The notes beneath the pieces are model-generated. The model saw only the letters and a list, made by a program, of their open reading frames with translations, did no database searches and was not told where the DNA came from. This document shows positions 4,969 through 26,996 of a stretch of 29,557 nt of DNA, one piece after another. Both the position numbers and the translations under genes were made by a program. This DNA comes from a virus: IMG/VR virus record IMGVR_UViG_3300040801_002376, positions 1-29,557 of that record; one strand, written 5' to 3'. Each line of letters opens with the position of its first letter. The stretch's first letter is position 1.

Positions 4969-5634
4969 TTACTCTACAAAGTCATTTACCATAGGGAAGA
5001 TTTTAGTGATTGCTTCGGCACATGCCTTAGCTACTTCAATATGTTCTTTTTGCGTTCCATTGCCTGAACGAAGCTCAATAAAGTGGATCCATGACCGGAT
5101 CGACCCTTGCATATAAAGACGAGACTTAGTATTACCTTCTGGCAAAACTGCACGTGCCTGCTCTTTTGCGATACCATTTTCAATAGCCCAGTTGTAGTGT
5201 TCCTTGGCTTTATCAATAACGTCTTGCTGTCGCATCCGCCATTCACCTTCGAGCTTTGGATCTACGTTATCAATAGAGTTCTGACGATTCTTTGTATCTT
5301 GCAAACGTGCTTCGCGCAGTACAAATGAGTCTCCAAACTCACGAGGATCGGCATACCGCTGACTAAACTCTTGGAATGCAAAAGAACGGTGCCGTAGCAT
5401 CTGACGTGCAATGTCACGTGTTGTTTCGATTTCCATAGTAGCAGAAGCCATTTCAAATGGTGACCAGTGTTTATGCTTTGCCAAGTAACCAAGAAGCTTT
5501 GGTGCAGTCTCTTGGTTTAATTGGTTAGATGGATTAGATACTCGTGCGCAATACGCAATCAAGTCCTGTACATCATCAAGTCCAATGATTGCATCAGCAA
5601 CAGGTTGAGTATATCCGATAAGTCTTACATTCAT
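4969..5634 (-). CDS. thyX: Flavin-dependent thymidylate synthase ThyX
   Basis: Makes dTMP from dUMP using methylene-tetrahydrofolate, FAD and NADPH, feeding phage DNA synthesis. The diagnostic RHRx7S signature is present: R81-H82-R83 and S91 in RHRSFAFQEFSQRY. The conserved HxHWSPFE segment lies at 54-61. Length 221 residues is normal for the family. It overlaps the gp41 gene by four bases. Because dTMP is made here, the TS-fold protein at 11914-12585 need not be a thymidylate synthase, which supports reading that one as a hydroxymethylase. Confidence 0.95.
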   Translation of the reverse strand: MNVRLIGYTQPVADAIIGLDDVQDLIAYCARVSNPSNQLNQETAPKLLGYLAKHKHWSPFEMASATMEIETTRDIARQMLRHRSFAFQEFSQRYADPREFGDSFVLREARLQDTKNRQNSIDNVDPKLEGEWRMRQQDVIDKAKEHYNWAIENGIAKEQARAVLPEGNTKSRLYMQGSIRSWIHFIELRSGNGTQKEHIEVAKACAEAITKIFPMVNDFVE

Positions 5635-6989
5635 GCTTTAAATCCTGAAAAATCTAGTTTGTCTTTTTGCGGAGCTACCTGTGGGGCAGTATCCGCGATT
5701 AGTGTTTGTGCTGATGCTTCAACATCATACAATCTCATTCTGGCTCGATCGACCCCGATAACAAATCGTTTATTGGTAGTGGGGTCGTTGTATCTATTCT
5801 TGAGCTGTTTGACCATGATTTGGCCGAGGCTTTCGAGTTCTTCGTTCGATATGAGGGCGAACATGAGATCTGCAGTTGCAGGAAGACCAAAGGATTCCGA
5901 CGTGTCTTCAAGGCCAACGTCAGTGTTTGAATATCCGCTTCGAGTTGTCTGAGTCGCCGATACAATGGGCACGTCGAATTCGACTGCAAGTCCTCGAATT
6001 TCTTCAGCAATTGACTTGATGAGGGAATATGTATTAACCGATCCACTTAAACCTTTCATTCTTGCTGAAGAACAAATGTTAAGATAGTCAATGAAGATAA
6101 TATCCGGTTCAAAGCTTTTCTTAAGCTTAAGCTCTTTTAACAAAGCTCGGAAGTGTCCGGTGTGAGCCGAACCAGTTGGATATTCTTTTACAATCAGCTT
6201 GCCAATTGTCTTCTTTGCGATTGCCGCTATCTTATTGTCAAAAGTATTTTTGTCGATTTTATCCAGTTGGTCAATGGGCATATTCATCAAGTTAGCATCG
6301 ATACGTTCAGCAATTCGTTCTTCTGCCATTTCCATAGTAATATACAAAACATTCTTACCTTGGGTCATAGCCGCTGCGCCTACGTGACACATGAATAACG
6401 ACTTACCAACACCTGTACCAGCCAGCGCGATATTTAGAGTCTTATTAGGTAATCCACCTTTTGTGATCTGGTTAAAGTAATCCAGGTCAAAAGGCATCCT
6501 TCCTTCTACTTTGTGGTAAAAGTCAAAGCGATCGTCAGAGTTATTAATATAGTCGTGGCCAATGTCCTGATCAAAGTTAACAGACAAAGCCTCAGATAAA
6601 ATCTCAGGAATTGCGTTGTTAGTCAGTTCAGACTTGCCATCAATAATCTCAATAGATTTCATAATAGAAAGAAAAACGGCACGATCTTGGCACCATTTTT
6701 CAGTCTTTTCTAATAACCAATCCATATCAGCTGGCTCGGGTGTCACCACATCGTTGATTAGATGAGCCGCTGCTTGGTATTTATCAGCTGAAACATTTGT
6801 CTCATCTAGTTCGATTTTAAGTGCTTCGCCAGTAGGGATCTTGTTGTATTTACCAACATACTGAAGAACGGTATCGAAGACGGCACGATGCTCGTCTTCG
6901 AAGTATTCCTTCTTTAGATATGGGATAACTCTTCGAGTAAAATCTTCATTGGTTAGTAGATTCCTCAATACTGTTGTCTGTAGACTCAT
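5631..6989 (-). CDS. 41: Replicative DNA helicase (T4 gp41, DnaB family)
   Basis: Hexameric 5'-3' helicase of the phage replisome. Counting from the chosen start, the N-terminal helical domain covers about 1-150 and the RecA-like ATPase follows: Walker A GTGVGKS at 191-197, Walker B IIFIDYLNI, then a sensor SATQTTRSGYSNTD and a C-terminal KNRYND segment typical of DnaB. I chose the ATG at 6989 (MSLQTTVLRN), which has AGGA upstream, rather than the longer ATG at 7022, which overlaps the upstream gene more. Sits in the uvsX-gp41-thyX block typical of T4 relatives. Confidence 0.95.
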   Translation of the reverse strand: MSLQTTVLRNLLTNEDFTRRVIPYLKKEYFEDEHRAVFDTVLQYVGKYNKIPTGEALKIELDETNVSADKYQAAAHLINDVVTPEPADMDWLLEKTEKWCQDRAVFLSIMKSIEIIDGKSELTNNAIPEILSEALSVNFDQDIGHDYINNSDDRFDFYHKVEGRMPFDLDYFNQITKGGLPNKTLNIALAGTGVGKSLFMCHVGAAAMTQGKNVLYITMEMAEERIAERIDANLMNMPIDQLDKIDKNTFDNKIAAIAKKTIGKLIVKEYPTGSAHTGHFRALLKELKLKKSFEPDIIFIDYLNICSSARMKGLSGSVNTYSLIKSIAEEIRGLAVEFDVPIVSATQTTRSGYSNTDVGLEDTSESFGLPATADLMFALISNEELESLGQIMVKQLKNRYNDPTTNKRFVIGVDRARMRLYDVEASAQTLIADTAPQVAPQKDKLDFSGFKA

Positions 6990-7308
6990 CGCCAATCCTA
7001 TACTTATCGTTTTCAAATGCATCTTGTAAGATGTGGTTTAGAACGTCTCCAATATAGTTATTGAAGTTGTTATCATTCTCAAGTTCTTCTTGATCATGAT
7101 CACCAGGTTCTAGGATCTGGTATTGGAACTTAAGGTTCGCAATACCATCACCGTTTTCTTCCACATGGTCAATCTTTGCCGTTACTTTTCCATAACAGTA
7201 GACCACACCTGCATACTTGGTTTTGAGCTTTACCGCCCATTGTTCATTGAAACCATTGTCTGCAAATGTGTAATCGTCTATTGTGATATCATTATACATC
7301 ATTTTCAT
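6946..7308 (-). CDS. Conserved phage protein between uvsX and gp41, 120 aa
   Basis: Acidic protein starting MKMMYNDITIDDYTF. Strands KYAGVVYCYGKVTAKIDHV give a likely beta domain, and the C-terminal 40 residues are Asp/Glu/Asn-rich. It overlaps uvsX by 17 bases and gp41 by 44. Its position between recombinase and helicase suggests a replication or recombination accessory role; I see no similarity to UvsY or gp59 that I could defend. Three ATGs stand close together, so the start may be three or four codons later. Confidence 0.75.
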   Translation of the reverse strand: MKMMYNDITIDDYTFADNGFNEQWAVKLKTKYAGVVYCYGKVTAKIDHVEENGDGIANLKFQYQILEPGDHDQEELENDNNFNNYIGDVLNHILQDAFENDKYRIGDESTDNSIEESTNQ

Positions 7309-8347
7309 CGAGAAGTAAACCCCCTTCTATCATAGAACGGTAACCAATTGTAAATTGTTTTTTGATGAACTCTTTGAAATCAGTTTCTTCAAGGATTGGT
7401 TTCCAGAACTCTTCGGTAAGAGTTGCAGCTGCACGAACTTTAGGATCAAGCAATTCACCAGTTTCACGGTCGACAACACAGTACCAACCATTTGATGGTT
7501 TAGCCACATAATTACCGGCCAGAGCAATGTCAAGTAGACCACTGTACTTCTCAATACCGCCATCCCACGATACGCTTACTGGAATCTTAGATTTCTCTTT
7601 GACATAACGAGACTTTTCAACGTTAATAATAAAGTCGTAACCAGTAACTTCTGTACCTGTCTTATTTTGACGACGACCCAAGATCCAGATATTATCGGCT
7701 GAATAGTAAATGCCTGTACCACCACCCACAACGTCTTTCGGGAACAAACCGATTTCTTTATATGTGTGGTTAATAGCAAGAAGAGAAATATTCTTCATTG
7801 TAAGGTATGGGGTAACCATACGGAATAGACCTTTAAGTGCCTTTGCACGAGACATATCTGCAACAGATTTCTCGTTGAGTGCATCCTCAAGTTCTTTCTT
7901 TGATGCAAGGTTACCAATAGAATCGATAACAATAATGACTTTATCGCCACGGTCAATGTTCTCAAGTTGGCCAACCAGGTCGAATTTAAGCTGCTCAACA
8001 TCTGTAATAGGAGTATGCAATACACGACCGGCATCAATGCCAAACGTTTCAAAGTAAGCTTGTGGTGAACCAAACTCAGAGTCATAGAACAACATAACAG
8101 CATCTTCATGCTCTCGAAGATATGCTGCAGCCATAAGCAAAGCAAACGAAGTCTTAAAGTGCTTCGAAGGACCGGCAAGAACAGTCAACCCTGACACGAG
8201 ACCGCCATCAACAGATCCACTCAGTGCAACATTAACCATTGGTACTTCGGTAGTCACAATATCCTTTTGAGCAAAAAGAACCGATTCAGAAAGAATAGCA
8301 GTATCCTTAATCTTGGTATTCTTTTTTAGTTTATTCATAATTGACAT
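7292..8347 (-). CDS. uvsX: UvsX RecA-like recombinase
   Basis: Strand-exchange protein for recombination-dependent replication and repair. Walker A is GPSKHFKTS at 59-67, matching the T4 UvsX form GPSKxFK. Walker B is VIIVIDSIGNL, and a VGGGTGIYYSAD loop corresponds to the DNA-binding region. The acidic C-terminus LLLDENDV is typical. Length 351 residues is close to T4 UvsX. ATG 8347 has AAGG eight bases upstream. It follows a small gene and the early promoter at 8551, consistent with early expression. Confidence 0.95.
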   Translation of the reverse strand: MSIMNKLKKNTKIKDTAILSESVLFAQKDIVTTEVPMVNVALSGSVDGGLVSGLTVLAGPSKHFKTSFALLMAAAYLREHEDAVMLFYDSEFGSPQAYFETFGIDAGRVLHTPITDVEQLKFDLVGQLENIDRGDKVIIVIDSIGNLASKKELEDALNEKSVADMSRAKALKGLFRMVTPYLTMKNISLLAINHTYKEIGLFPKDVVGGGTGIYYSADNIWILGRRQNKTGTEVTGYDFIINVEKSRYVKEKSKIPVSVSWDGGIEKYSGLLDIALAGNYVAKPSNGWYCVVDRETGELLDPKVRAAATLTEEFWKPILEETDFKEFIKKQFTIGYRSMIEGGLLLDENDV

Positions 8348-8543: not shown

Positions 8544-8579
8544 TGGTATTATTATACCATAAACTCATCTAGTTGTACA
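8544..8579 (-). promoter_or_regulatory. Early promoter overlapping the stop codon of the upstream gene
   Basis: Minus strand: -35 TGTACA at 8574-8579, 17-bp spacer, -10 TATAAT at 8551-8556. Perfect inverted repeat TGGTAT-TATT-ATACCA at 8544-8559. The stop codon TAA of the 8552-9601 gene is part of the -10 box. Drives the small gene at 8519, uvsX, gp41 and thyX. Confidence 0.85.
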
Positions 8580-9601
8580 CCTTTATTTTTAGGCTCACCT
8601 TGTCTTTGTTCCCATCCCGAGATCCAACCTGAGTTATTAGATAGGCTAGATGGGATATGGCCAAATGTATCATCACTTCGTGGTACGTAATTCTGACCGA
8701 ACCGAACAAAGTCGCACATCACATCTTCGTTATCCCGAGGCGCACCACCCATACGTTCACACAGTAAATCCATAAAGGAATCTGTATCATATCCACTTGA
8801 CAATAGTTTCATACAACGAACTGCATTATTTCCAAAGTATCCATGTGACATATCATCAACCAGATCTTTGTGGTAGTCACCTAAATCATATGAGAATGCA
8901 GCGTAGACAAAGTTAAATCGTTTGTGTCCTTGTTCTACGTTATGTTGATTTAAATAGTCAACCACTTCTTTGTGTGTTCTCTTACGACCTTCTTTTGGCA
9001 TCCAATCCATAAACCGGTCGAGCAACGGTTCAAGCTCATTAACCATAAAATCAAGGCAAGTAACACCCTTACGAGGAGAAGGTGGTTGGTTACCAATAGA
9101 TGTAAACAGTGGTTTACCTGCACCCTTGGTTTCAACCATGAGATCTTTCATGTCTTGGATATCTCGTAGAGTACCAAAGCGATGTACGATATTATTTCGA
9201 TAACCGTGATCTCGAGTAAACGATGCACCTGAACCGGTAATGCGGTGTGCCAAATAAACGTAGAACCAGGTTTTAGTATCCCAGCTGTCAGTGATATAGC
9301 TATCAACCAGATCCCAATAATCCTGGCCGAGTGCTGGGTTTTTAATCTGATGATGACGCTTCGGTGTTTCTCTACAGAACTTTAGATCCTGTAGAACGTT
9401 AGAAAAACCAGCAGCGTTTCGTGTGTAACAATCGTAAATATCTATCTCTTGCATCAGCGGATCGTTTACTGCAGCATCAGCTTCTGGCCCGAGGTAGGAT
9501 AGTTTACCCCAGTTGCAGTTCTCTTGCAGCCATTTGGCACGCGGATAATAATAGTTGACTAGTACATCTAGTGCTTCTTCATTCAGCCATTTCTTTGACA
9601 T
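8552..9601 (-). CDS. Putative aGPT-pyrophosphorylase-like base hypermodification enzyme
   Basis: Resembles alpha-glutamyl/putrescinyl thymine pyrophosphorylase (aGPT-Pplase) proteins, which are proposed to replace an activated hydroxymethyl group on DNA pyrimidines by an amine. From the chosen start, RITGSGASF falls near 120-128, HGYRNN at 132-137 and a TSIGNQPPSPRKG segment near 167-179; these are what remind me of the family. The ATG at 9649 has a good GGAG but would overlap the upstream gene by 71 bases; ATG 9601 (MSKKWLNEE) has GGGA and a 23-base overlap. Last gene of the modification cluster. The family call is from memory and should be treated as a hypothesis. Confidence 0.55.
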   Translation of the reverse strand: MSKKWLNEEALDVLVNYYYPRAKWLQENCNWGKLSYLGPEADAAVNDPLMQEIDIYDCYTRNAAGFSNVLQDLKFCRETPKRHHQIKNPALGQDYWDLVDSYITDSWDTKTWFYVYLAHRITGSGASFTRDHGYRNNIVHRFGTLRDIQDMKDLMVETKGAGKPLFTSIGNQPPSPRKGVTCLDFMVNELEPLLDRFMDWMPKEGRKRTHKEVVDYLNQHNVEQGHKRFNFVYAAFSYDLGDYHKDLVDDMSHGYFGNNAVRCMKLLSSGYDTDSFMDLLCERMGGAPRDNEDVMCDFVRFGQNYVPRSDDTFGHIPSSLSNNSGWISGWEQRQGEPKNKGVQLDEFMV

Positions 9602-10487
9602 TCTTTTCCCAATCTCTGTATGAGTCAATTCGATCGTAGATTGTTTCATCTTTTAGCTCCGGTTCTGTTCCGACATTCCAAAATAAAATGTCTTTATGTT
9701 TGGCTTCTTCTTTATTGATAAAACGCCAAACCTTAGCATCATACGTACCAATAGTTGGAAAGGGAGGCCAGAGATCTTTATCTTCTTCTTTTGTAAAGGC
9801 ATACGGATGGCTTATTGGAGTTGCTAAACCAAGCTCACCGGCTTTCATGTTACGTGATACACAAACCGAAGTAAACTTAGCATTAGGCCATGCAATTTGC
9901 AGCCCCCGTGTGAGCACGCCCGTGGACGTGGCAGTATACACTTCGTCTGGTTCTTTAAGTTTAGATGCTGACTTTACGATACCAGCAGTAACCATCTCAT
10001 GCTTTAAACCAAGTGGAATAAAGAAAGCGTTGTGGTGTTCATCAGCCCACTTCTTTGCAATCAGATTCAGGTTAGGCATTGCAGCAATACGATGAAAAGA
10101 TACCTCAGCACCACGCTCGATACAACATGCCTGGTGAATAGAAATCTTTTTAGATGAGGGCATGAACAGCATTACTTTTTTGTTATGACGTTTTGCCACA
10201 TCCAAAATAGATACACCAGCCAAACCTGTTCGTGGCTGAACATAAACAATAGTGTCTATCTCTTCAGGTAAAGAAGAAATGAGGCAGTCACCACCACGAA
10301 CTTTTGATCCAACCAGATAGTCATCACGTACGACACGTACACCATCATGCATTACTACTTCAGGTGTACCATAAGGATCTTCCCAGTCTTTGGCAAGGTT
10401 TAAGTAATATTCTTTTGCGTCTTCAAATGTGTAAAGGGGTCCAACGTCCTTGTTGACCCCATCGACTACGTGTTTATTATGAGCCAA
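9579..10487 (-). CDS. PLP-dependent enzyme, fold type II (ACC deaminase/cysteine-desulfhydrase-like)
   Basis: The VVRDDYLVGSKVRGG segment matches the lysine region of ACC-deaminase-like enzymes, with K62 as the probable Schiff-base lysine. A substrate loop RTGLAGVS and a phosphate-binding-like TSTGVLTRG follow. At 302 residues it is slightly short of the family norm. The start is TTG at 10487 (GGAG 11 bases upstream), overlapping the previous gene by eleven bases; no ATG occurs before M46, which would leave little before the lysine. Inside a cluster with a TS-like hydroxymethylase and a putative base pyrophosphorylase, it may trim or supply an amino-acid group on a modified base. Substrate unknown. 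Confidence 0.75.
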   Translation of the reverse strand: MAHNKHVVDGVNKDVGPLYTFEDAKEYYLNLAKDWEDPYGTPEVVMHDGVRVVRDDYLVGSKVRGGDCLISSLPEEIDTIVYVQPRTGLAGVSILDVAKRHNKKVMLFMPSSKKISIHQACCIERGAEVSFHRIAAMPNLNLIAKKWADEHHNAFFIPLGLKHEMVTAGIVKSASKLKEPDEVYTATSTGVLTRGLQIAWPNAKFTSVCVSRNMKAGELGLATPISHPYAFTKEEDKDLWPPFPTIGTYDAKVWRFINKEEAKHKDILFWNVGTEPELKDETIYDRIDSYRDWEKNVKEMAE

Positions 10488-11454
10488 GTAAAGTTACTCC
10501 CCAATCGTTTCTGTAATAAAATGGTGGAGCAATGTGGAATGATGATCCGTGCTCCATATATGTTTTTGCGTATGTCTCACCATCCATTGTGTACCAATCA
10601 CGGGGTGGAATAATTATGTTTCCGTTGGATTGTTTATCGAGTTCGTCAATAAAGTGCATTGTAACGTCTCGACGATCAGCGGAAGATCCGTAGAACGGGG
10701 TTCCTTTAAAGAATCCAGATTTGGGAATACGGCGACCTTCCCATTCAACGGGTACTGGACAACTATATAGTACTTGCACTCCGAACTTGGATTGAAGAAC
10801 TTCGCCCTCTCGGATGTACCGACTGACCAAATCTGCCACGTCATAATCATCGTGCCGGCAAATATGGTGCCTAATGTCAATAGAGCCAAAACAGAGATTA
10901 ATGACGCCAGTAGGTACCACGCCACGGAGCATAGATTCAAAACCATTTTTAAGAGCACCGTGAAGAGTTTTGCCATCGTTACGAAGCACACGATGCCTAT
11001 GCCCACTAAAAGCAATAGTGTGAGAATCTCCCAAAGTGACTGAGTCATAGTCTAAGTCCTCTTGTTTCAAGGAAGGCACATTCTTCAACCTATTAGAAAG
11101 TGCATCACACCATTCTTCGGTAATACCTTCGTAAGTAGTATTTGCGCCAATACGCTTTTTCAGCATTGCTCCATAGTCTGGCATATCCCAATCAAGTGAC
11201 ACGATATTATCACACGAAGCAACTAGGTTGATCCGATCAAATACTTCCTTTGTTGCACCACCAAATAGGTTAAGTGTACCACCAAAGTTAGCACCATGGT
11301 CGATGTAAACCTTGTTGTACAATGTAACATTTGGTGTACATTTATTATTAATATCGGCATTAAGCTGCTCAGCCCACAGCTGAGACCAGCCATGGGTGTG
11401 AGACTTTGGATTAACCGGTATATTAGATATAGGGTTTGTGATTACACTAGTCAT
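10477..11454 (-). CDS. SGNH/GDSL-like protein in the modification cluster
   Basis: Starting at ATG 11454 (MTSVITNP), the 325-residue protein has LGDSHT with the nucleophile-type GDSH at 142-145, a block-III-like FGSIDIRHH at 189-197 and FHIAP with H307 near the C-terminus. These agree with an SGNH hydrolase or transferase core, although the Asp normally three residues before the catalytic His is not obvious. About 130 N-terminal residues form an additional domain containing DHGANFGGTLNLFGG. It overlaps the dCMP deaminase gene by eight bases. An acyl or ester transfer role on a DNA base or nucleotide is speculation from context. Confidence 0.6.
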   Translation of the reverse strand: MTSVITNPISNIPVNPKSHTHGWSQLWAEQLNADINNKCTPNVTLYNKVYIDHGANFGGTLNLFGGATKEVFDRINLVASCDNIVSLDWDMPDYGAMLKKRIGANTTYEGITEEWCDALSNRLKNVPSLKQEDLDYDSVTLGDSHTIAFSGHRHRVLRNDGKTLHGALKNGFESMLRGVVPTGVINLCFGSIDIRHHICRHDDYDVADLVSRYIREGEVLQSKFGVQVLYSCPVPVEWEGRRIPKSGFFKGTPFYGSSADRRDVTMHFIDELDKQSNGNIIIPPRDWYTMDGETYAKTYMEHGSSFHIAPPFYYRNDWGVTLLGS

Positions 11455-11902
11455 CGATAAACTGCCAAGCAACCCCGGCCTCTGAAAATAGTTCTTGAGT
11501 AAGCTTAAAAGATTCTGTCCATACCTCAGGAGTATCTTCCTGAGATGGCATAATTACCTGTTTAACACCAACCTGGATAAGACCCTTTGCACACTCAGAA
11601 CAGACAGGAAGACCTGTAACATACACAGTAGATCCATCAAGGGAAACACCATTATATGTTGCGTTATAAATCAGATTCATTTCGGCATGAACAACAAATT
11701 TATATTTAGTCTCACGGTCATTTAACCGCTCTGGGCTGTGACGAATATTACGGGGAAAGCCATTATAGCCTTGAGCCAAAACCTGGCCTTTATCACCAAC
11801 TGCCACTGCACCAATCTTACGAGACGGGTCTTTAGACCAAGTTGAGATTTCCTTAGCGAGGCTTAGATAACGTTTATTCCAATCATGACGAAGTGTGGGC
11901 AA
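11447..11902 (-). CDS. cd: Deoxycytidylate (dCMP) deaminase
   Basis: Converts dCMP to dUMP, the substrate of ThyX. Zinc and catalytic motifs are complete: HAEMN with H72 and E74, and PVCSEC with C101 and C104. The start is TTG at 11902 with AAGGA eight bases upstream; there is no ATG in frame near the N-terminus and the residues from RHDWNKRYLSLA are conserved in the family. Length 151 residues is normal. It lies between the TS-like gene and the SGNH gene, so it may also serve nucleotide supply for base modification. Confidence 0.93.
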   Translation of the reverse strand: MPTLRHDWNKRYLSLAKEISTWSKDPSRKIGAVAVGDKGQVLAQGYNGFPRNIRHSPERLNDRETKYKFVVHAEMNLIYNATYNGVSLDGSTVYVTGLPVCSECAKGLIQVGVKQVIMPSQEDTPEVWTESFKLTQELFSEAGVAWQFIDD

Positions 11903-11913
11903 ATCAGTATTCC

Positions 11914-12585
11914 TTATTTAACTAGATCGAAGTGGCGTTCGTATACGTGGAGATTCATCACTTGCCAGGTGAGATCACCTTTTTCAACATAGACATCAAA
12001 CTGTTCTGCTAGTGATCCGATGGCATAATCCATAAGATACTGAGCCCACGCATAATCATTCTTATATCCAAATACAACATCGTTTGAACGCATTTGAGAT
12101 ACCATATGCAGCTTACCATCACGGATATAGAAGGTTTGCGCATTGGTACAGATGAAGTCAGACTTGCCACCTTCATCGAATTCAACCCAGATTGATGGAC
12201 GGTTGTAAACCATTTGAGCACGGCGAGAGTCAGGATTGCCAGCTAGTTCTTCAATAGCCTTGTAATATTGACCATGATACTTTTCAGAAAAAACTAAGTG
12301 ACCATAGTTTGAATTAATGTTACCATGGGCATCGGCCGAGTACTGCCATGCTGCAGGAGGAGCCTTATCTTTACCATGGATATCATTAATGTTGGTTGAC
12401 ATTGATTCGTACCAAGCTAGCTCGGCATTAATGTATTCCTGGCTTGGCATGCCGAAAATAGATGGTTCATCAGCTATAAAAGATGCACCTAACATTTCGA
12501 TAGTTTTAGCACCAGTTTTATCAACAGTGAATCGTTTGTGAGCTAGTTCAGATTTAAAGTAATCTCTTACATCATTTACATTCAT
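11914..12585 (-). CDS. Thymidylate-synthase-fold deoxypyrimidine hydroxymethylase, probably dCMP hydroxymethylase
   Basis: TS family with catalytic C146 in FICTNA and the RSND signature at 166-169. The residue at the place of N177 of E. coli TS is D177 (GYKND), the change known to favour dCMP over dUMP in T4 gp42. The phage already has ThyX, so a methylating TS would be redundant. The product would be 5-hydroxymethyl-dCMP, later built into DNA. It heads a run of genes for deaminase, SGNH protein, PLP enzyme and pyrophosphorylase-like protein. Its start overlaps the preceding small gene by ATGA. dUMP hydroxymethylase remains possible. Confidence 0.8.
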   Translation of the reverse strand: MNVNDVRDYFKSELAHKRFTVDKTGAKTIEMLGASFIADEPSIFGMPSQEYINAELAWYESMSTNINDIHGKDKAPPAAWQYSADAHGNINSNYGHLVFSEKYHGQYYKAIEELAGNPDSRRAQMVYNRPSIWVEFDEGGKSDFICTNAQTFYIRDGKLHMVSQMRSNDVVFGYKNDYAWAQYLMDYAIGSLAEQFDVYVEKGDLTWQVMNLHVYERHFDLVK

Positions 12586-12761
12586 TCGTCATCACCTTCT
12601 GAAACTGTTGCGTGTGTATATCCGGTTGCTGCAAGGAACTCATTAAAGGCTTGACGCATTTCATACACATCGGCATCGTCTACGATTTCCATAGTTACAG
12701 ATTTCACTGCCGTAAATTCTTGACTACTTTTCGGTGTTTCATATGTTAGGGTATAACTCAT
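12582..12761 (-). CDS. Small acidic protein, 59 aa
   Basis: ATG at 12761 opens MSYTLTYETPKSSQEFTAVKSV and the product ends SEGDDE. One strand pair followed by a helix MEIVDDADVYEMRQAFNEFL. It overlaps the TS-like gene (ATGA) and the upstream DUF5664 gene (four bases), so all three are translationally coupled. Function unknown. Confidence 0.75.
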   Translation of the reverse strand: MSYTLTYETPKSSQEFTAVKSVTMEIVDDADVYEMRQAFNEFLAATGYTHATVSEGDDE

Positions 12762-13069
12762 GATTTCTCCTTATATCGGTCATCCATATCAGGATGCTCA
12801 TTGGTGTGAATCATTAGAATCATAAGCTGGCACATGGCATGGGCCAAGTGACGATTGCCTGATTCTGGATCCAGGTCTTCACCACGCCAGTAGGCGTTAA
12901 GGTGACGTTGCATTGATGAATAAGTACGTGAATGGGCAGTGTTACCACCATCCATTCGCCAGTTATTCATGCCATACTTTTCAGCGCCGAAGCCAAGAAC
13001 GACTGATGCCTCTTCGAGGACTTCGGGCGGAAGAAGTGCTAAGTTAGGTTTTCCATTATCATATTTCAT
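12758..13069 (-). CDS. DUF5664-type nucleotide pyrophosphohydrolase (MazZ-like)
   Basis: Matches the dATP/dGTP diphosphohydrolase N-terminal family: KYDNGKPNLALLPP at the N-terminus, GAEKYGMNNWR, and HLNAYWRGEDLD...HLAHAMCQL. These proteins are all-alpha NTP pyrophosphohydrolases. One of two such paralogues in the window (the other at 27990). Beside the hydroxymethylase it could clear an unmodified dNTP such as dCTP, as T4 gp56 does; substrate is inference. A link to 2-aminoadenine genomes is not supported because no PurZ is seen. Confidence 0.8.
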   Translation of the reverse strand: MKYDNGKPNLALLPPEVLEEASVVLGFGAEKYGMNNWRMDGGNTAHSRTYSSMQRHLNAYWRGEDLDPESGNRHLAHAMCQLMILMIHTNEHPDMDDRYKEKS

Positions 13070-14857: not shown

Positions 14858-15268
14858 CTATAGAGCTGTCTCAAGGTCACCGTGGTTGCCATCATGAGTA
14901 GGTGCTTCCCAACCCTCAGGCTTAATTAGATCTGGCAAACCGAATGGGTTTGGTCGACCTTCTTTGATACCAACAGACTTAGCCATGTTAGCTTCGAAGA
15001 CACGATCCCATGCTTCATTGGCATCTACTCCAAATACATCGAGTGTACCAATAGCGAAAACGCAGAGATCAATAAGACCATCCACAACTTCCTCAGGATC
15101 ATTTGCCTCGAAGGCATCGAATGTTTCATCTAGCTCTTCTTTACACATTGCAAGGCGGAACTGAAGGTATTTTTCCATCAGGTCTTTATTGCCTTTATTA
15201 TTTTCAAACCAATCACGCACACCAAACTTGTGATGCATCATCATAATATCATTTGCCCAATCAGACAT
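14858..15268 (-). CDS. MazG-like nucleotide pyrophosphohydrolase
   Basis: All-alpha NTP pyrophosphohydrolase: KEELDETFDAF and EEVVDGLIDLCVFAIG provide the ExxE and E/DxxD metal ligands. The C-terminal region NMAKSVGIKEGRPNPFGLPD is typical of the long phage MazG/PRA-PH-like variants. Likely hydrolyses a dNTP or (p)ppGpp-like substrate. Overlaps the shorter MazG-like gene upstream by eight bases; the tandem pair may form a heteromer, which is speculative. Confidence 0.8.
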   Translation of the reverse strand: MSDWANDIMMMHHKFGVRDWFENNKGNKDLMEKYLQFRLAMCKEELDETFDAFEANDPEEVVDGLIDLCVFAIGTLDVFGVDANEAWDRVFEANMAKSVGIKEGRPNPFGLPDLIKPEGWEAPTHDGNHGDLETAL

Positions 15269-18058: not shown

Positions 18059-18405
18059 CACGATCCCTCATAGCTAATAGTGCGACCAGTATCTTCATAA
18101 ATCATTGACCAACCGCATCCATATGCAGGGACTACCTCTACGAATTGTGGCATTTGATTATCATCTTTAGGTCCATGACCACCGGTCAAGAAATATGCAC
18201 CACTCATTTCTGGTGTTGCGTGTTTAAAACGAATACGTTCACGTTCATAGATTTCAAGGCCTTTGCGCAGTTTTTCGTTTTCGGCTTCCAGTTCCTCGAT
18301 GCGTGCCTCTGCCTGCTCAAGCTCTGCCGTCACCTCTTGCAATGCGTCCCAGTCCTCCTGATCGTTAAGGTACTTGTTGATTGCGTATGTGTTTCCGTCA
18401 GTCAT
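18058..18405 (-). CDS. Coiled-coil accessory protein, 115 aa
   Basis: ATG 18405 (MTDGNTYAINKYL) with GGAGG seven bases upstream is preferred to the TTG just before it. Residues about 20-55 form a coiled coil (ELEQAEARIEELEAENEKL). The C-terminal half QFVEVVPAYGCGWSMIYEDT is beta-rich and resembles the end of other small phage proteins. Function unknown. Confidence 0.65.
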   Translation of the reverse strand: MTDGNTYAINKYLNDQEDWDALQEVTAELEQAEARIEELEAENEKLRKGLEIYERERIRFKHATPEMSGAYFLTGGHGPKDDNQMPQFVEVVPAYGCGWSMIYEDTGRTISYEGS

Positions 18406-18767
18406 CAAACTTCCTCCACAAATATCTCAGGGTTGCTACCATCCTCGTTACGTTCAATGCGGTAGACGCAGAGGCGGTTTTCTGTAGCCCCACGGTTCAC
18501 TTTATTTGAAGCCCCGACCCAACCCTCGTAGACGTTGTGCCACGTTGTGATGCCTATTTGGATGTCGTGAAGGTCATATTTACCCTCATCATCAGGCCAA
18601 TAAGCCCCGCTTTCTGCGTAATTACAGGCGCAACCCTCGTCATCGAAACCAACCAGAGGTCTCTCTTTGTTGTAATAAGAACGCCCCAAGATAGTGACCT
18701 TGCTTCCAAATCCATCAACATACTCTGCGGGGAACTCTGTTGGCGGTGTAAATTTACGTTTAGTCAT
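18405..18767 (-). CDS. Conserved accessory protein, 120 aa
   Basis: Starts MTKRKFTPPTEFPAEYV. Central part GFDDEGCACNYAESGAYWPD and C-terminal RLCVYRIERN are seen in prophage and phage hypothetical proteins. The strand-rich profile and two cysteines give no clear function. Coupled to the next gene by a one-base TGATG overlap. Confidence 0.7.
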   Translation of the reverse strand: MTKRKFTPPTEFPAEYVDGFGSKVTILGRSYYNKERPLVGFDDEGCACNYAESGAYWPDDEGKYDLHDIQIGITTWHNVYEGWVGASNKVNRGATENRLCVYRIERNEDGSNPEIFVEEV

Positions 18768-18970
18768 TCTGTTTTTCCTTCATGATCCACAAATAGTTTC
18801 AAAGTTTGACAGTCATCTTGGAGTTGATACGAAACACCTGTTACATTATGCTTTGTATAAACACGACCATCGTTATCAATTACTTCAACACGATTAACAC
18901 GAGAGAAGTCTCGGGCTTGCTCAGCAAACCACTCAGGACTCATTGGTTTACGATTCGGTGGAAGGGGCAT
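18764..18970 (-). CDS. Small accessory protein, 68 aa
   Basis: Opens MPLPPNRKPMSPEWFAEQARDF and ends FVDHEGKTE, the same EGKT ending as the 17367-17561 protein, with shared junction DNA after it. One helix then a four-strand region VEVIDNDGRVYTK. Not recognised. Confidence 0.65.
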   Translation of the reverse strand: MPLPPNRKPMSPEWFAEQARDFSRVNRVEVIDNDGRVYTKHNVTGVSYQLQDDCQTLKLFVDHEGKTE

Positions 18971-19428: not shown

Positions 19429-21960
19429 TTATGCAAAAAAATCTTCGAGATTTACAACAGGTTCAGAAGTCCAGCCGATTGCCTCAAGGATCGGGTTGAT
19501 CGCATCAAGAAATGTCTTATCAAACATCAGATTGTAATCGATGTATTTGTGCAACTGAAACTCGGGAGGAAGATAATCAGGGAAAGTGATTACGTTCTCA
19601 CGAATCGGGTTTGGTTTTTTGAGGTAGCAGAACTTTACCTTATCACCATTCTGGATCTTCTCGTACTCTTTGAGACCCTTAGTAAGGATGACGTTATTAT
19701 ATAGCAAAGCACCACGGACGTGGATTGGTGTACCTTTCTTATAGATGGCAGCACGGTCTTTCCACTTGATTACATCAGACACACCACGAGGGAACGATAT
19801 CTTCTCGGGAGGAAGAGACGTAAAGTGATCACGGAACTGCTGAATCGCACGTTGAGTATTTGTCTCAGAGCCAGTCATGATAACCTTAAACAAAGCTTTC
19901 ATGCCATCACGACAGACCTCGGGAGTAGAAGACTTAACAGCTTCGATACCCATGATCTTGAGCTTAGGTTCTTTGTACTCAACACCTTCTGAGTTGTGAA
20001 CGTTTAGGATGTAACGTTTCTTGGCAGTCCATACACCTTTATCGGCAATAACCTCACGCTCCATTACCATCTTTTGCTGGTAAGAGTTGAGCTGAGTTGC
20101 CATACCATCATATGACTTGGCAATAAGAGGTTCGAACTTATCAGACACGATCTTGTCAATAAGATCCACAACCTCTTTGACAGGCCGATCTTGCATACCA
20201 AGCTTCTTGACAAGAGGACCAAAGTTTACATAGTTTGAATCGGTGTCGATTGCAATCACATAGTCTTTGTTCTTAGTCTCACACACCTTATTCATGAAAT
20301 CATTGAATGTCTTCTCAGCCCAACGAATTGCAAGCTGGCCGGTAAGCGTAATACCCTCGGCCATACGCAGATCGAAGTGACGGAACCAACGGTTACCCAT
20401 TGCACCATAGAGTGAGTTCATCAAAATCTTGGCAGCCATTTGCTGATTGTCAAGGGTAGACACCTGCTTCTCGAGTTGATACACTCGTTGCTTATCAGTC
20501 TTATCTACGTTAACCAGCTCTTGCTGTGCACCAAGCATTGCTTTCTTGGTTGTCTTACGTTCGGCATAGATCTTCTCAATAATCGCAGGAATGATACCTT
20601 GACGATCTTTACGATACAATGTGCCGTTAGCTGCCATGGCAAGATTATCGGGATCAGGATTGAGACCGTTGCGTTGAGTGAGGCATGAGTCAACATCTAC
20701 ACCTGGAACAATATCATCGATAATAGTCTCGGGAGACATATTACACTGCATAATAATGTGAGGATAGAGTGAGTTCAAATCGAAAGAAACAACCCAGTCG
20801 TGCATGCCAACCTTTGGAGGTTTAACATAACCACCGGCAAAAGCAGTCTTCATCCGCTCTTCGTTAGGCTGAACCACAATACCTTTGTCATGCAGATCAC
20901 GATAGATGATCGAATCCCAGATAGCGGTAGTGCCTAGTGTGTCACCATAGTTGACACCACCACGGTAAGCCAGAGTCATTGCAAGGTTAATGAGACCCAT
21001 CTTGTCATCGAGTTTGTATACGATACCAACGTCTTTGATGTTATAGTCACCAAACTTTTGAGGATCTTGCTCATACAAGTCTTGCAAGTCTTTGTACTCT
21101 TCGTACGAAAGCTTCTTCTCACCCAGTTCAACGTGGGCAATATGGTCAAGTTTGTAAGATTCTTGGGCAGTGTAAGTAAATTTCTTGTACAGCTCAAGGT
21201 AGTCAAGCTCAGTCACGCCAACAATATCATAGTACTGTTGCTCACGACCATTGATCTTTACAGAACGTTGGCTGACACGGTTCCAGGGGGAAAGTTTGTT
21301 GGCATACTCCTCGCCAAGAAGTTTGACGATACGATTGACTACGTATGGAGTATCGAAGAACTTACAGTTCCAACCAGTAATAATGTCTGGTGTATTTACA
21401 GGAGAAGACCACCATCCAAGGAAGGCAGTCAATAAGTTAGCTTCGGTTGCACAATAGAATGCTTCTACCTGTACTCCGTCAAGATCTAGTTCTGACTTAG
21501 AACGATCCCATTCTTTGAGGTACCAGAGGTAGTAAGTATTGTTTTGATTATTGCGATAAGCAATTGCATTGATGGGGTTGTTTGCATCGGCAGGATCTGA
21601 GTAACCGTCTTCGGTTTTCATCACCTCGATATCGTAAAAGCCTACGTTCACTTGGTCAGGATCAAATGCGATCTGGCCAGGGAACTTCTCTTGAACGAAT
21701 TGGGTAACATAGTTAGTGTTACCATACACCTTAAAGTTAGGCATATCTTTATAGCGATCGACAAAGTCTTTTGCCTCACGCATGTCATCTAACTGTACGC
21801 CAGATACCCTTGCGCCGTCAAGCGCAAAGGTTTCTGATTTAGGATTAGGGACGAAGAGAGTGGGTTTGAATTTTACCCGCTCATGGACACGATGGCCACC
21901 CTTGTACCCGCGATAGAGTAAAGAGTTGCCGTACCGTGTTACGTTTGTATAGAATTCCAA
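19429..21960 (-). CDS. 43: DNA polymerase, family B (T4 gp43)
   Basis: Replicative polymerase with 3'-5' exonuclease, 843 residues (T4 gp43 has 898). Exo I is FYDIEV with D110 and E112. Polymerase motifs are DLNSLYPHIIMQ (A), KILMNSLYGAMGNRW (B) and AIDTDSNYVNF (C). The C-terminus NLEDFFA looks like a clamp-binding peptide for gp45. The start is TTG at 21960 (TTG GAA TTC TAT) with GGAGG seven bases upstream. It is the first gene of its own transcript from the promoter at 21987. Confidence 0.97.
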   Translation of the reverse strand: MEFYTNVTRYGNSLLYRGYKGGHRVHERVKFKPTLFVPNPKSETFALDGARVSGVQLDDMREAKDFVDRYKDMPNFKVYGNTNYVTQFVQEKFPGQIAFDPDQVNVGFYDIEVMKTEDGYSDPADANNPINAIAYRNNQNNTYYLWYLKEWDRSKSELDLDGVQVEAFYCATEANLLTAFLGWWSSPVNTPDIITGWNCKFFDTPYVVNRIVKLLGEEYANKLSPWNRVSQRSVKINGREQQYYDIVGVTELDYLELYKKFTYTAQESYKLDHIAHVELGEKKLSYEEYKDLQDLYEQDPQKFGDYNIKDVGIVYKLDDKMGLINLAMTLAYRGGVNYGDTLGTTAIWDSIIYRDLHDKGIVVQPNEERMKTAFAGGYVKPPKVGMHDWVVSFDLNSLYPHIIMQCNMSPETIIDDIVPGVDVDSCLTQRNGLNPDPDNLAMAANGTLYRKDRQGIIPAIIEKIYAERKTTKKAMLGAQQELVNVDKTDKQRVYQLEKQVSTLDNQQMAAKILMNSLYGAMGNRWFRHFDLRMAEGITLTGQLAIRWAEKTFNDFMNKVCETKNKDYVIAIDTDSNYVNFGPLVKKLGMQDRPVKEVVDLIDKIVSDKFEPLIAKSYDGMATQLNSYQQKMVMEREVIADKGVWTAKKRYILNVHNSEGVEYKEPKLKIMGIEAVKSSTPEVCRDGMKALFKVIMTGSETNTQRAIQQFRDHFTSLPPEKISFPRGVSDVIKWKDRAAIYKKGTPIHVRGALLYNNVILTKGLKEYEKIQNGDKVKFCYLKKPNPIRENVITFPDYLPPEFQLHKYIDYNLMFDKTFLDAINPILEAIGWTSEPVVNLEDFFA

Positions 21961-23013: not shown

Positions 23014-23240
23014 TACAAACCCCTCCGTTTCATATCTGCAGAACCATGTGCGATACTGTAGATATCACCACGTGAAATACCGATATCATTAAGCTCTTTA
23101 GTAGTAAGTGCATTCAACTCTTGAATGGTCTTTGCTACCTCTCTAGCATATTTGTATGATTCGCGTAAACTCACGATGTGTTTAAAAAGGATCTGGAATG
23201 GATTTCCCAGATTCGGTAAGTAGTTGACTAATGTGGTCAT
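23013..23240 (-). CDS. DUF1127 (YjiS-like) protein, 75 aa
   Basis: The C-terminal half has the DUF1127 signature: ELNALTTKELNDIGISRGDIYSIA. Such small Arg/Lys-rich proteins are common in Alphaproteobacteria, where some bind RNA and affect stress response and nutrient uptake. The start is ATG 23240 (MTTLVNYLPNLG) with GAGG nine bases upstream; it lies inside the hsp20 reading frame, giving a 59-base overlap. It was probably acquired from the host and is expressed with hsp20. Confidence 0.8.
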   Translation of the reverse strand: MTTLVNYLPNLGNPFQILFKHIVSLRESYKYAREVAKTIQELNALTTKELNDIGISRGDIYSIAHGSADMKRRGL

Positions 23241-23664
23241 TGTGTGTTTCCTCGTTTTTTCCAATTGAAATTTTACGAGGACGCTTTTCGTCTGGAAGTA
23301 CAACCTTCAATTGCACAGCAAGGATTCCTTCTTTTAGATCAGCTCCGTGTACGTGTACGTACTCAGACAGCCTAAAGGTTCTATGGAACTTCTTAGCAGA
23401 AATACCCTTGTGGATATAGTTTCTGCCTTGACTTACATGTTCACCTTTTACCGTTAACGTGCGGTCGTTTACTTCGATCTCGATCTCATCACGCCTAAAA
23501 CCCGCGACAGCGAGTTCGATTTGGTAATCGTGTTCGTCAATTCTGACAATGTTATGAGGGGGATAGTGATCGTTGGCATGCCTAGCTGCTCTGTCGAGTT
23601 CATCTAGCATGTGATCGAAACCTACGAATGAGGCACGTGGAAACAGTGATTTTACGCCTGTCAT
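23182..23664 (-). CDS. hsp20: Small heat shock protein, Hsp20/IbpA family
   Basis: ATP-independent holdase chaperone, 160 residues. Alpha-crystallin domain runs about 38-130: DYQIELAVAGFRRDEIEIEV, a strand LTVKGEH, then FHRTFRLSEYV and a GILAVQL motif (the G-x-L signature). N-terminal arm has FVGFDHMLDELDRAA as in IbpA. Hsp20 is a regular late gene of marine T4-like phages. An exact late promoter box lies 64 bases upstream, so it is made when capsids assemble. Confidence 0.95.
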   Translation of the reverse strand: MTGVKSLFPRASFVGFDHMLDELDRAARHANDHYPPHNIVRIDEHDYQIELAVAGFRRDEIEIEVNDRTLTVKGEHVSQGRNYIHKGISAKKFHRTFRLSEYVHVHGADLKEGILAVQLKVVLPDEKRPRKISIGKNEETHNDHISQLLTESGKSIPDPF

Positions 23665-24019: not shown

Positions 24020-24394
24020 TTACGTATTTCCGATATTATATTTGGGACATAGTTCCCATTGTTGTTTTTCCTTGTGAGGAATAACTTTAATCTGACGAAG
24101 AGGAGCTTTATCAGTCGCCTGAGCTCCATTCACGATATCCAACAAACCCCAATCAGAAAGCAGTGTTGCAATCGTATTACGGCGTTGTACATCATTGTCC
24201 ATCAGATTCGACGGTTTCCCGTCTAGCATGAATAACTCTTTAAAGTGAACAATAAAATATCTACCCTGCTTGTGCAAGATATGACAAGATTGGTAAAGTT
24301 TATTGTCCTTACGGGAAGCGACACCGATACGGGTGAGGGTTTCTCGGATCTTTAAAAAGTCATCCGGTTCTTTGAGCGTGATTTCCAGCATCAT
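24020..24394 (-). CDS. regA: RegA translational repressor
   Basis: Binds start regions of early mRNAs and blocks their translation. Clear similarity to T4 RegA: MLEITLKEPDDFLKIRETLTR, YQSCHILHKQGRYFIVHFKE, a DWGLLDIV segment and PKYNIGN at the end. I use the ATG at 24394 (MMLEITL), which gives 124 residues as against 122 in T4; the frame extends to a GTG at 24433 that overlaps gp62 and is probably not used. Classical T4 order gp62-regA is kept. Confidence 0.95.
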   Translation of the reverse strand: MMLEITLKEPDDFLKIRETLTRIGVASRKDNKLYQSCHILHKQGRYFIVHFKELFMLDGKPSNLMDNDVQRRNTIATLLSDWGLLDIVNGAQATDKAPLRQIKVIPHKEKQQWELCPKYNIGNT

Positions 24395-24416
24395 AGCCGG
24401 AGTCCACGTTACTTCG

Positions 24417-24797
24417 TTATTTGGTTTTTCCACCTTTATAGACCTTCATTTTCAATTCATCAATTTGATTTTTAGTTAATACTCTAAGCACTTGACGTGC
24501 CTTCTCATTGCTATAGCCATAATATTCTTTAATGGCGTCTAACGCTTCTATTGTATCTGGTTTGATCCATTTACTAAAGCGCTTTTTGCTTCTGATAGTA
24601 TTTATAAGAAAATCAAATTGAAGTTTCGAGTCTACGTGATGACACCGGTTCATCTCATTAGCGAGAAGAACTGTGTCCGGAAAGTAAGAAAGTCCACGGT
24701 TAACCATATAGGCACTGTAAGCTTTCTCGGTTAAGTCATCAACCATGATATTCTTTTTGGTTTGATTGATGGCATTTAGATAATCAAAAGGGTTCAT
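24417..24797 (-). CDS. 62: Clamp loader small subunit (gp62)
   Basis: Works with gp44 to load the gp45 clamp. The N-terminus MNPFDYLNAINQTKKNIM and the segments FPDTVLLANEMNR and KKRFSKW are those of gp62 in marine T4 relatives. Length 126 residues is shorter than T4 gp62 (187), as usual in that group. It lies between a small membrane-protein gene and regA. A late promoter box is embedded in its coding sequence. Confidence 0.9.
   Translation of the reverse strand: MNPFDYLNAINQTKKNIMVDDLTEKAYSAYMVNRGLSYFPDTVLLANEMNRCHHVDSKLQFDFLINTIRSKKRFSKWIKPDTIEALDAIKEYYGYSNEKARQVLRVLTKNQIDELKMKVYKGGKTK
24599..24606 (-). promoter_or_regulatory. Intragenic late-promoter box in gp62
   Basis: Minus strand reads TATAAATACTATC, matching the T4 late consensus and also most of the downstream bases seen in strong T4 late promoters. 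It would supply late transcripts for regA and the GroES-like gene. It could be a chance match in an A/T-rich frame. Confidence 0.5.
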
Positions 24798-24964
24798 AAT
24801 CCAATAAGTCCTAATCCATGGTTTGCGATCGCATTTAAGATAATAAAGACTCCGACAAGAACTTCGAAGAGAACGATTACGGTACGTACTATCGCAACCT
24901 TATCGGCCTTCTCAGCATCGTCGAAAGCTTTACTACCTAGTGCTTTTGCCCATATTGTCCACAT
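24794..24964 (-). CDS. Small membrane protein between gp44 and gp62, 56 aa
   Basis: ATG 24964 overlaps the TAA of gp44 (TAATG), preferable to the longer frame to 25003. The product MWTIWAKALGSKAFDDAEKADK is followed by one transmembrane helix VIVLFEVLVGVFIILNAIA. A membrane protein inside the clamp-loader operon is unusual; it overlaps gp62 by four bases. A replisome anchor to the membrane is a speculative role. Confidence 0.75.
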   Translation of the reverse strand: MWTIWAKALGSKAFDDAEKADKVAIVRTVIVLFEVLVGVFIILNAIANHGLGLIGL

Positions 24965-25899
24965 TACTGCCACTCTGCAGCAGCCATTACCTCGGTCATG
25001 CATGCGACAACGTTAAGCTCATGATCAGCAACAAAAGCATTTTTGTACTGATAGTCAGCTAGGATAAGAACAATCTGAGGAATAGAGTGAGGTTTTAGGT
25101 TATCACTCATATTGTCATAGATCTTACGGAAGATGGCATGGGGTTCAGTATCCATATTGTCTGCGACCCACTTACGCATCTGTTTAAAGTCTTTGTTACG
25201 TAGGTGAGAAATAAGACCTTTGACACTATCATCAACCAGGTTAACCAACACACCTGAATCAATAGTACCAGACACGGAATAACGCTGACACTCGTTTAGA
25301 ATACGACGGAAGTCGGGGAAATACTTTTGGACAACTTCAGCCACAACCTTTTGGTCATAGGTAATGCTTTCCTGGTCAAGTACTCCAGTTACTCGTTTAA
25401 AGATACCACCAGCAATTGCTGGCTTTTCACTATTTGGAATAGCGAAATCATAGACACTGCACCGAGAGTGCAACGGCTCAATGATACGGTTTTTAAAGTT
25501 GCAAGTCAAGATGAACCGGCAATTGTTTGAGAATTCTTCAATGAATCCACGCAATGCAGGTTGAGTTGATTGTGGGTTTAGGTAATCAGCCTCATCGAGG
25601 ATAACAACCTTGTAACCACCTTGCAATGAAACCGAAGAAGCAAACTGTTTAATCTTACCACGTAGGGTATCGATATTACCTTCTTCGGAACCGTTGACTA
25701 CGATGTAATCAAGCTCGAGCATATTGCACAAAGCTTTGGCTACCGTAGTCTTACCGACACCAGCCGTACCACTAAACATCATGTTTGGTAGTTCACCAGA
25801 CTTGGCGATATCGGTAAAGGTTTTAGTCAAAGACTTGGGAAGTACACACTGTTCGATTGTACGAGGGCGGTACTTTTCTACCCATAGAAATTCAGACAT
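24964..25899 (-). CDS. 44: Clamp loader large subunit (gp44), AAA+ ATPase
   Basis: ATPase subunit of the gp44/62 loader. Walker A GTAGVGKT at 44-51, Walker B LDEAD at 101-105, and an SRC arginine-finger motif at 145-147. N-terminus FLWVEKYRPRTIEQCV is typical for clamp loaders. Length 311 residues compares with 319 in T4. First gene of the transcript from the early promoter at 25929, which is back to back with a plus-strand late promoter. Confidence 0.96.
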   Translation of the reverse strand: MSEFLWVEKYRPRTIEQCVLPKSLTKTFTDIAKSGELPNMMFSGTAGVGKTTVAKALCNMLELDYIVVNGSEEGNIDTLRGKIKQFASSVSLQGGYKVVILDEADYLNPQSTQPALRGFIEEFSNNCRFILTCNFKNRIIEPLHSRCSVYDFAIPNSEKPAIAGGIFKRVTGVLDQESITYDQKVVAEVVQKYFPDFRRILNECQRYSVSGTIDSGVLVNLVDDSVKGLISHLRNKDFKQMRKWVADNMDTEPHAIFRKIYDNMSDNLKPHSIPQIVLILADYQYKNAFVADHELNVVACMTEVMAAAEWQ

Positions 25900-26551: not shown

Positions 26552-26628
26552 TGGTCGGAGTACAAGGATTCGAACCTTGGACCTCTTGGTCCCAAACCAA
26601 GCGCACTACCAGGCTGTGCTATACTCCG
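26552..26628 (-). tRNA. tRNA-Pro (anticodon UGG)
   Basis: Seven-pair acceptor CGGAGTA/TACTCCG, D-arm with GGT, anticodon stem CTTGG/CCAAG with loop TTTGGGA (anticodon TGG), T-loop TTCGAAT, discriminator A and encoded CCA. 77 bases. Reads CCA proline codons. Confidence 0.95.
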
Positions 26629-26920: not shown

Positions 26921-26996
26921 TGGCTCCCTGTGCTGGGCTCGAACCAGCGACACATTGATTAACAGTCAATTGCTCTACCAACTGAGCTAACAGGGA
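26921..26996 (-). tRNA. tRNA-Asn (anticodon GUU)
   Basis: Acceptor TCCCTGT/ACAGGGA, D-arm GCTC-AGTTGGTA-GAGC, anticodon stem ATTGA/TCAAT with loop CTGTTAA (anticodon GTT), T-stem GCTGG/CCAGC with loop TTCGAGC, G73 and encoded CCA. 76 bases. Confidence 0.95.

Follow-up and report, generated by a model that had tools for sequence, protein, structure and literature searches.

In phages SP10, phiW-14, M6 and ViI, thymidine hypermodification relies on a hydroxymethylase of the thymidylate synthase (TS) fold, which produces a 5-hydroxymethyl pyrimidine, on a DNA kinase and, encoded beside the hydroxymethylase, on a protein of the amino acid:DNA transferase (AADT) or aGPT-Pplase fold and a pyridoxal phosphate (PLP) enzyme. 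The AADT fold is, to our knowledge, known only from such thymidine pathways. The known kinases for 5-hydroxymethyldeoxyuridine (hmdU) consist of a P-loop kinase joined to a helical domain, HMUDK_hel. Phage cytosines are known to be hypermodified mainly with sugars, and also with carbamoyl and carboxymethyl-derived groups. Hypermodified thymidines arise after replication in pathways of the AADT type: a DNA kinase first phosphorylates hmdU within DNA, and alkylation follows (PMC6449724). Here, we describe a gene cluster in the window, by which we mean the whole stretch analysed: 29,557 bases (29.6 kb) of the IMG/VR virus record IMGVR_UViG_3300040801_002376, a fragment of a larger marine T4-like phage genome. 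Five genes on its minus strand encode a gp42-type deoxycytidine monophosphate (dCMP) hydroxymethylase, a dCMP deaminase, an SGNH protein, a PLP enzyme of fold type II and a protein referred to as X; the last three are called the trio below. Compared to the SP10, phiW-14, M6 and ViI pathways, the hydroxymethylase is of the dCMP rather than the deoxyuridine monophosphate (dUMP) type, no HMUDK was found, an SGNH protein is present and the PLP enzyme belongs to fold type II. A sequence-only reading of this DNA had proposed a DNA base hypermodification cluster. This is still the best reading by a wide margin, given the location of the trio in the slot of the T4 beta-glucosyltransferase (beta-GT) gene, the ties to a dCMP-type hydroxymethylase, the fold of X and the fusions of SGNH proteins. 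We are highly confident that the cluster is a module for the hypermodification of 5-hydroxymethylcytosine (hmC), and the trio very probably decorates phage hmC through undescribed chemistry.

The hydroxymethylase and the gene 42-uvsX interval

The hydroxymethylase (11914-12585; PF00303) shares 48% sequence identity with T4 gp42, and its best match in the PDB is the T4 dCMP hydroxymethylase 1b49 (phmmer E=3e-64). Whether the residue at position 179 of the T4 enzyme is Asp or Asn sets dCMP specificity in gp42 and TS proteins. Asp177 of the window protein aligns with T4 Asp179, which is Asn in the mutant 6l18, and both Asp177 and the catalytic Cys146 are kept in 98/98 aligned TS-fold proteins (97 distinct relatives from the neighbourhoods and the window protein). 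This conservation and the close homology to gp42 argue for the dCMP specificity that had been suspected; of the two final bases then considered, cytosine and uracil, they favour the former and speak against the latter. It is strongly supported by homology that the gp42-type enzyme makes 5-hydroxymethyl-dCMP (hm-dCMP), which would provide the handle for further modification.

The identity of the dCMP deaminase (11447-11902) is borne out by matches to PF00383 (E=7e-18), phrog_174 (E=2e-40) and PDB 7fh4 (E=1e-25). Thymidylate synthase ThyX is separately encoded on the minus strand (4969-5634; PF02511, E=2e-45) so that deoxythymidine monophosphate (dTMP) can be made without the TS-fold gene. The deaminase would feed dUMP to ThyX and ThyX would supply dTMP, with the TS-fold gene left for hmC. 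A PRA-PH/MazG-like pyrophosphohydrolase on the same strand (14858-15268; PF01503, E=5.5e-10; phrog_671, E=1e-23) is a candidate deoxycytidine triphosphatase (dCTPase) feeding the hydroxymethylase. TS, PRA-PH and dCMP deaminase genes together form the cassette reported with hmC modification by MetaGPA (PMC8670742). The 5-hydroxymethylcytosine carbamoyltransferase clusters of that study share this cassette and also have a non-glycosyl hmC-modifying enzyme, whereas SGNH-PLP-X is found here, and no carbamoyltransferase.

The gene order in T4 is 43-imm-42-beta-gt-(segA)-uvsX-40-41, and that in the window is 43-...-42-dCD-SGNH-PLP-X-uvsX-(6946-7308)-41, where dCD is the dCMP deaminase gene. The downstream border is set by the UvsX recombinase gene (7292-8347, minus strand; PF21134, PF00154), whose product is 53% identical to T4 UvsX. 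Gene order thus strongly supports the view that, in T4-like members, SGNH-PLP-X fills the slot that holds the beta-GT gene in T4. Both systems use the same hydroxymethylase, and their further genes stand in the same interval; the N-terminal domain of the SGNH protein may also resemble that of beta-GT (see below). However, the nucleotide-sugar-binding domain of beta-GT is replaced by an SGNH domain, and two added genes (PLP and X) follow.

Alternative occupants of the slot were surveyed in loci fetched with UvsX alone. The slot holds a TAGT gene (PF20691, E=2.5e-21) in L174, a homologue of the T4 alpha-glucosyltransferase (alpha-GT) in L170, L172 and L219, and UDP-galactopyranose mutase (UGM) in L159. 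TAGT has been reported as syntenic with T4 beta-GT (PMC13390438). Since known glycosyltransferases and the trio alternate there, the 42-uvsX interval is an exchange site for hmC-modifying enzymes, and this is the strongest single argument for the function of the trio. In these five loci, a C5-methyltransferase-like gene (~395-400 residues) is often found directly before uvsX.

A sister cassette in L222 (L222:1944-6965) consists of inositol-phosphate-synthase-like, HMUDK_hel, SGNH and C5-cytosine-methylase-like genes. Its HMUDK_hel protein scores over the cut-off (E=1.7e-9) and has no Walker A motif. Similar cassettes occupy the same slot in L157, L166, L171 and L187. Judging from its composition, the sister cassette may produce an inositol-type hmC, possibly with a step by a protein of the C5-methyltransferase fold.

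An alternative is that a sugar from a UDP-sugar is put on hmC and then edited or acylated by the trio. Many relatives have genes for a UDP-glucose dehydrogenase and an NAD-epimerase in the stretch from X to uvsX, and SGNH accompanies UGM and a putative glycosyltransferase in Aeromonas phage 25 and the inositol-phosphate synthase in L222. The dehydrogenase/epimerase pair was rejected as evidence for a sugar, however, as it is not specific: such pairs also border uvsX in fetched stretches without gene 42. Moreover, no such sugar genes are present among the open reading frames of the window that were scanned, and glycosyltransferase families GT2 and GT4 are absent from 16 records that include large relatives (other glycosyltransferase families were not searched). 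We consider this alternative improbable. A tblastn search with T4 alpha-GT, beta-GT and gp56 found no match to any of them in the window, nor in two relatives (G001 and G002) with lengths of 142 and 152 kb.

Linkage and folds of the SGNH, PLP and X proteins

The SGNH gene (10477-11472) probably starts at an ATG at 11451, as suggested by conservation. The PLP gene (9579-10487) has a TTG start, and X (8552-9649) agrees better with its homologues when started at 9601 (Met17). The deaminase and SGNH genes overlap by 26 bp (5 with the start at 11451), SGNH and PLP by 11 bp, and PLP and X by 71 bp (23 with the start at 9601). All five genes are real and closely packed, but they are not all overlapping, as had been stated, since an 11-bp gap separates the hydroxymethylase and deaminase genes.

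X, SGNH, PLP and a divergent SGNH served as queries in scans of viral contigs for related loci; because the loci were fetched with genes of the trio, their number is not a measure of frequency, and the result lies in adjacency, strand and partner. SGNH, PLP and X are all present in 151 loci, on one strand in 151/151 and within four genes of each other in 149/151, and a TS-fold gene lies on the retrieved stretch in 118 of these. The trio is kept at X identities down to ~25-30%. Its order varies (SGNH-PLP-X, X-PLP-SGNH, X-X2-SGNH-PLP and TS-SGNH-PLP-X-DCD), and it is also found outside the T4-like block, so that the association is kept by selection rather than by recent descent. It is thus strongly supported that the three genes form one functional unit tied to hmC. 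Within it, the core is SGNH and X. In a 136-kb contig (G018) these two adjoin the TS-fold gene, with PLP elsewhere in the contig. In a 225-kb phage (G021), where PLP is also elsewhere, they are fused in one open frame of 790 residues (SGNH, residues 45–358; X, residues 414–788). This natural fusion strongly supports SGNH and X acting as partners, and SGNH, which had been noted as foreign to the known pathways, is better seen as the partner of X than as an odd addition.

The AlphaFold2 model of the SGNH protein (pLDDT 83) has the expected SGNH fold in residues 134–324, with many SGNH chains at VIA Z ~12, preceded by an extra N-terminal domain of ~130 residues (about 1–133) that had gone unnoticed. 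Ser150 (in the GDSH motif of block I), Asp199, Glu307 and His313 are invariant in 121/121 homologues, His313 being the putative C-terminal catalytic histidine. The N-terminal domain aligns with the T4 beta-GT family, collinearly from residue 1, with an hhalign score of 37.4, whereas 40 column shuffles reached 24.4 at most; the score rose from 31.2 once beta-GT homologues were added. Asp94 aligns with Asp100 of beta-GT, the catalytic base of that enzyme. The UDP-glucose-binding C-terminal Rossmann domain of T4 beta-GT is absent, and the SGNH domain occupies the C-terminal part. The alignment is suggestive, though not proof, of a beta-GT-like acceptor domain. None of RB69 arabinosyltransferase, T4 alpha-GT and the putative glycosyltransferase of phage 25 is similar to the SGNH protein.

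Cultured Aeromonas T4-like phages carry full-length SGNH homologues with 27-32% identity. The SGNH protein of phages 31 and 44RR is extended by a fused C-terminal domain that matches HMUDK_hel weakly (E=0.0036, below the cut-off; L111:6007-8394 in phage 31). This fusion (phrog_17781; 32% identity over 95% in its SGNH part) resides, as here, in T4-like phages with gp42 and without glucosyltransferase homologues. In contrast to the window, its partner domain is weakly HMUDK_hel-like and not X, no PLP homologue was detected, and it lies near motA rather than in the beta-gt slot. In phage 25, SGNH stands alone after UGM and a putative glycosyltransferase gene (L112:3776-7047). The HMUDK_hel-type proteins beside or fused to SGNH have no Walker A motif. 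As SGNH is fused to a domain resembling the one normally joined to a P-loop kinase, the SGNH domain seems to stand in the kinase's place.

X has no match in Pfam, PHROG, NCBIfam or PDB-sequence searches, nor by tblastn against cultured phages. Foldseek comparison of its AlphaFold2 model (pLDDT 84) with the PDB gave no significant match and, thus, its placement rests on matches in BFVD and VIA. In BFVD, the top models (E=1.9e-14, TM 0.73) bear the name "Amino acid:DNA transferase domain-containing protein", and weaker matches to Pplase1 and 5-hmdU-kinase helical-domain (HMUDK_hel) models follow. The six top PDB chains in VIA are all HhH DNA glycosylases, with Z of 7.2-8.3, which is middling for a helical protein. 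The earlier label of X as aGPT-pyrophosphorylase-like agrees with this structural match, which is to the family that the label predicted, but finds no counterpart in sequence profiles; conversely, the profile searches did not place the 8552-9601 protein in any unrelated family. Asp255 and twelve other residues listed with it are invariant in 113/113 sequences. A second, distant paralogue, X2 (hhalign E=2.4e-4), adjoins X in many loci, such as L137:9361-10347, L101:7024-7998, L054:5235-6230 and others.

The folds bear on the substrate. As the trio adjoins nucleotide-pool genes, and as 5hmdCTP is also a substrate of the hmC carbamoyltransferase (PMC8670742), the trio might act on hm-dCMP or its triphosphate, hm-dCTP, before replication and not on DNA. 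The beta-GT-like N-terminal domain and the DNA-glycosylase-like fold of X, however, point to a base flipped from DNA, and the known AADT-type pathways follow replication (PMC6449724), which makes action on free nucleotides quite improbable. We think it likely that SGNH and X both act on hmC in DNA.

The PLP protein of the window scores under the Pfam cut-off of 35 for PALP (PF00291; 19.3 bits, E=8e-4), with a stronger match to phrog_7093 (E=2.5e-38). Homologues that are ~35% identical reach 40 and 46 bits, above the PALP cut-off, and the PLP lysine (K62) and the Ser/Gly loop are invariant in 114/114 sequences. The predicted assignment to fold type II is therefore upheld through these relatives. 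Relatives that exceed the PALP cut-off, in Microcystis phage Mae-JY30 and Erythrobacter phages ZS04 and R6L, form part of ParB-type/N6-N4-methylase DNA-modification proteins or are encoded next to them, which ties this PLP branch independently to DNA modification. In L115:2326-4764, L113 and L114:6378-8696, from Erythrobacter and Microcystis phages, the PLP domain lies between N6/N4-type methylase motifs and follows a ParB-like N-terminus, making a puzzling PLP-methylase chimera.

The PLP gene is dispensable, since L062, L064 and L208 carry SGNH and X with no PLP gene on the retrieved stretch. In L028, a class II aldolase (1496-2101) stands where the PLP gene would be. SHMT or class II aldolase genes lie within the block at L073:8657-9802, L066:6236-7375 and L071:9834-10436. 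Such genes, and the mostly metabolic roles of fold-II PLP enzymes, would fit an auxiliary metabolic module for serine- or cysteine-type amino acids that is unrelated to DNA modification. That explanation leaves X, the slot, the constant tie to a dCMP-type hydroxymethylase in T4-like and other phages and the SGNH fusions to DNA-modification folds unaccounted for, and we disfavour it as very improbable.

A possible route to modified hmC

The catalytic steps, donor and product that we infer are as follows. The SGNH protein would hold the flipped hmC through its beta-GT-like N-terminal domain, and its Ser-His centre would equip the 5-CH2OH with a leaving group of the acyl type, the job of the DNA kinase in thymidine hypermodification. 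X, with its AADT fold, would then let an amino-acid-like nucleophile take the place of the acyl group on the 5-methylene carbon; the fold-II PLP enzyme would either make this nucleophile or trim it after attachment. O-acylation by SGNH is the simplest reading because the AADT-fold X is fused to SGNH and because HMUDK_hel (PF18723) was found in none of 22 records, eight of them of 117-225 kb (the records are fragments, and only the helical domain was sought). As a whole, hmC hypermodification in which SGNH takes the place of both glucosyltransferase and kinase, X attaches and PLP makes or trims is the explanation we favour on balance. Its parts differ in strength: an amino-acid-derived product is an even call, and the role of SGNH as an activator replacing the kinase is tentative. 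More tentative still is the broader proposal that a beta-GT/SGNH chimera acylates hmC and an AADT-fold partner swaps the acyl for amino-acid-derived groups or, in sister cassettes, inositol-like ones; this would be a new chemical logic, yielding a new class of cytosine bases common in aquatic T4-like and other phages.

Several observations weigh against this route. Block III of the SGNH domain is G-x-I-D in nearly all members and, as the canonical oxyanion Asn of G-x-N-D is absent, acyl transfer is not assured. The match of the N-terminal domain to beta-GT covers 48 columns only (hhalign E=7.6e-5, probability 62%), and Asp94 is found in only 87/121 homologues, the aspartate being apparently displaced by two positions in the others. 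The link of X to the AADT superfamily is structural only, through the names of predicted models; no Pfam match was obtained for 68 diverse members, and hhalign of X with the set of Aeromonas C-terminal domains and HMUDK_hel remained at noise level. Fold-II PLP enzymes differ from the decarboxylases of the known hypermodification pathways. Finally, a kinase of another family could be encoded in the rest of the genome.

SGNH could instead carry out the last addition itself, forming an O-acyl or O-aminoacyl ester of hmC, with X only helping to bind or flip the base and PLP making the amino acid of the acyl donor. The acyltransferases SsfX3 and PatB are among the structural neighbours of the SGNH domain, the SGNH protein of phage 25 has no fused C-terminal domain, and the same TS/PRA-PH/deaminase cassette accompanies the known O-carbamoylation of hmC to 5-carbamoyloxymethylcytosine (PMC8670742). 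Yet X is as conserved as SGNH, has invariant polar residues and is fused to SGNH in the 225-kb phage; it looks like an enzyme rather than a reader, and X and SGNH persist without PLP (L062 and L208). We regard a final ester as unlikely, and prefer activation by SGNH followed by displacement by X.

Surrounding genes and biological meaning

The remaining genes place the cluster in a T4-like replication block. On the minus strand, gp45 (27320-28003), gp44 (24964-25899), gp62 (24417-24797), RegA (24020-24433) and DNA polymerase gp43 (19429-21960) are encoded on one side of the cluster and gp41 helicase (5631-7022) on the other. The window also encodes a CobS/CbbQ-like AAA ATPase (28402-29514), an Hsp20 small heat-shock protein (23182-23664) and two paralogues of a dATP/dGTP diphosphohydrolase N-terminal domain (12758-13069 and 27990-28421), together with tRNA-Pro (TGG; 26552-26628) and tRNA-Asn (GTT; 26921-26996) on the minus strand. 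By megablast against cultured phages, the sole match of the window is a short Roseobacter-phage patch: 495 bases (18287-18781) with 92.6% identity to the Roseobacter podovirus SIO1 around gp12/thymidylate synthase. The patch points to a recent exchange, and hints at a host of the Roseobacter group. Relatives L133-L135 were found in a Rhodobacteraceae metagenome bin.

Our literature search found no link of SGNH or PLP proteins with phage hmC, although an earlier bioinformatic mention in papers on thymidine pathways is possible. As far as that literature shows, the joint occurrence of a dCMP hydroxymethylase, an AADT-fold protein and an SGNH protein at the beta-gt position is new, while hypermodification modules as such are already known. 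The module would represent a further branch of cytosine hypermodification, one that borrows the AADT fold and works without the kinase. Petrov et al. noted that gene 42 is present, and a glucosyltransferase lacking, in Aeromonas phages 44RR, 31 and 25, with any further modification of hmC unknown (PMC2993671); the SGNH module is a candidate answer to this question, raised in 2010 for these cultured phages. Such enzymes bear on the escape of phages from restriction and CRISPR, and may offer tools for labelling and mapping hmC.

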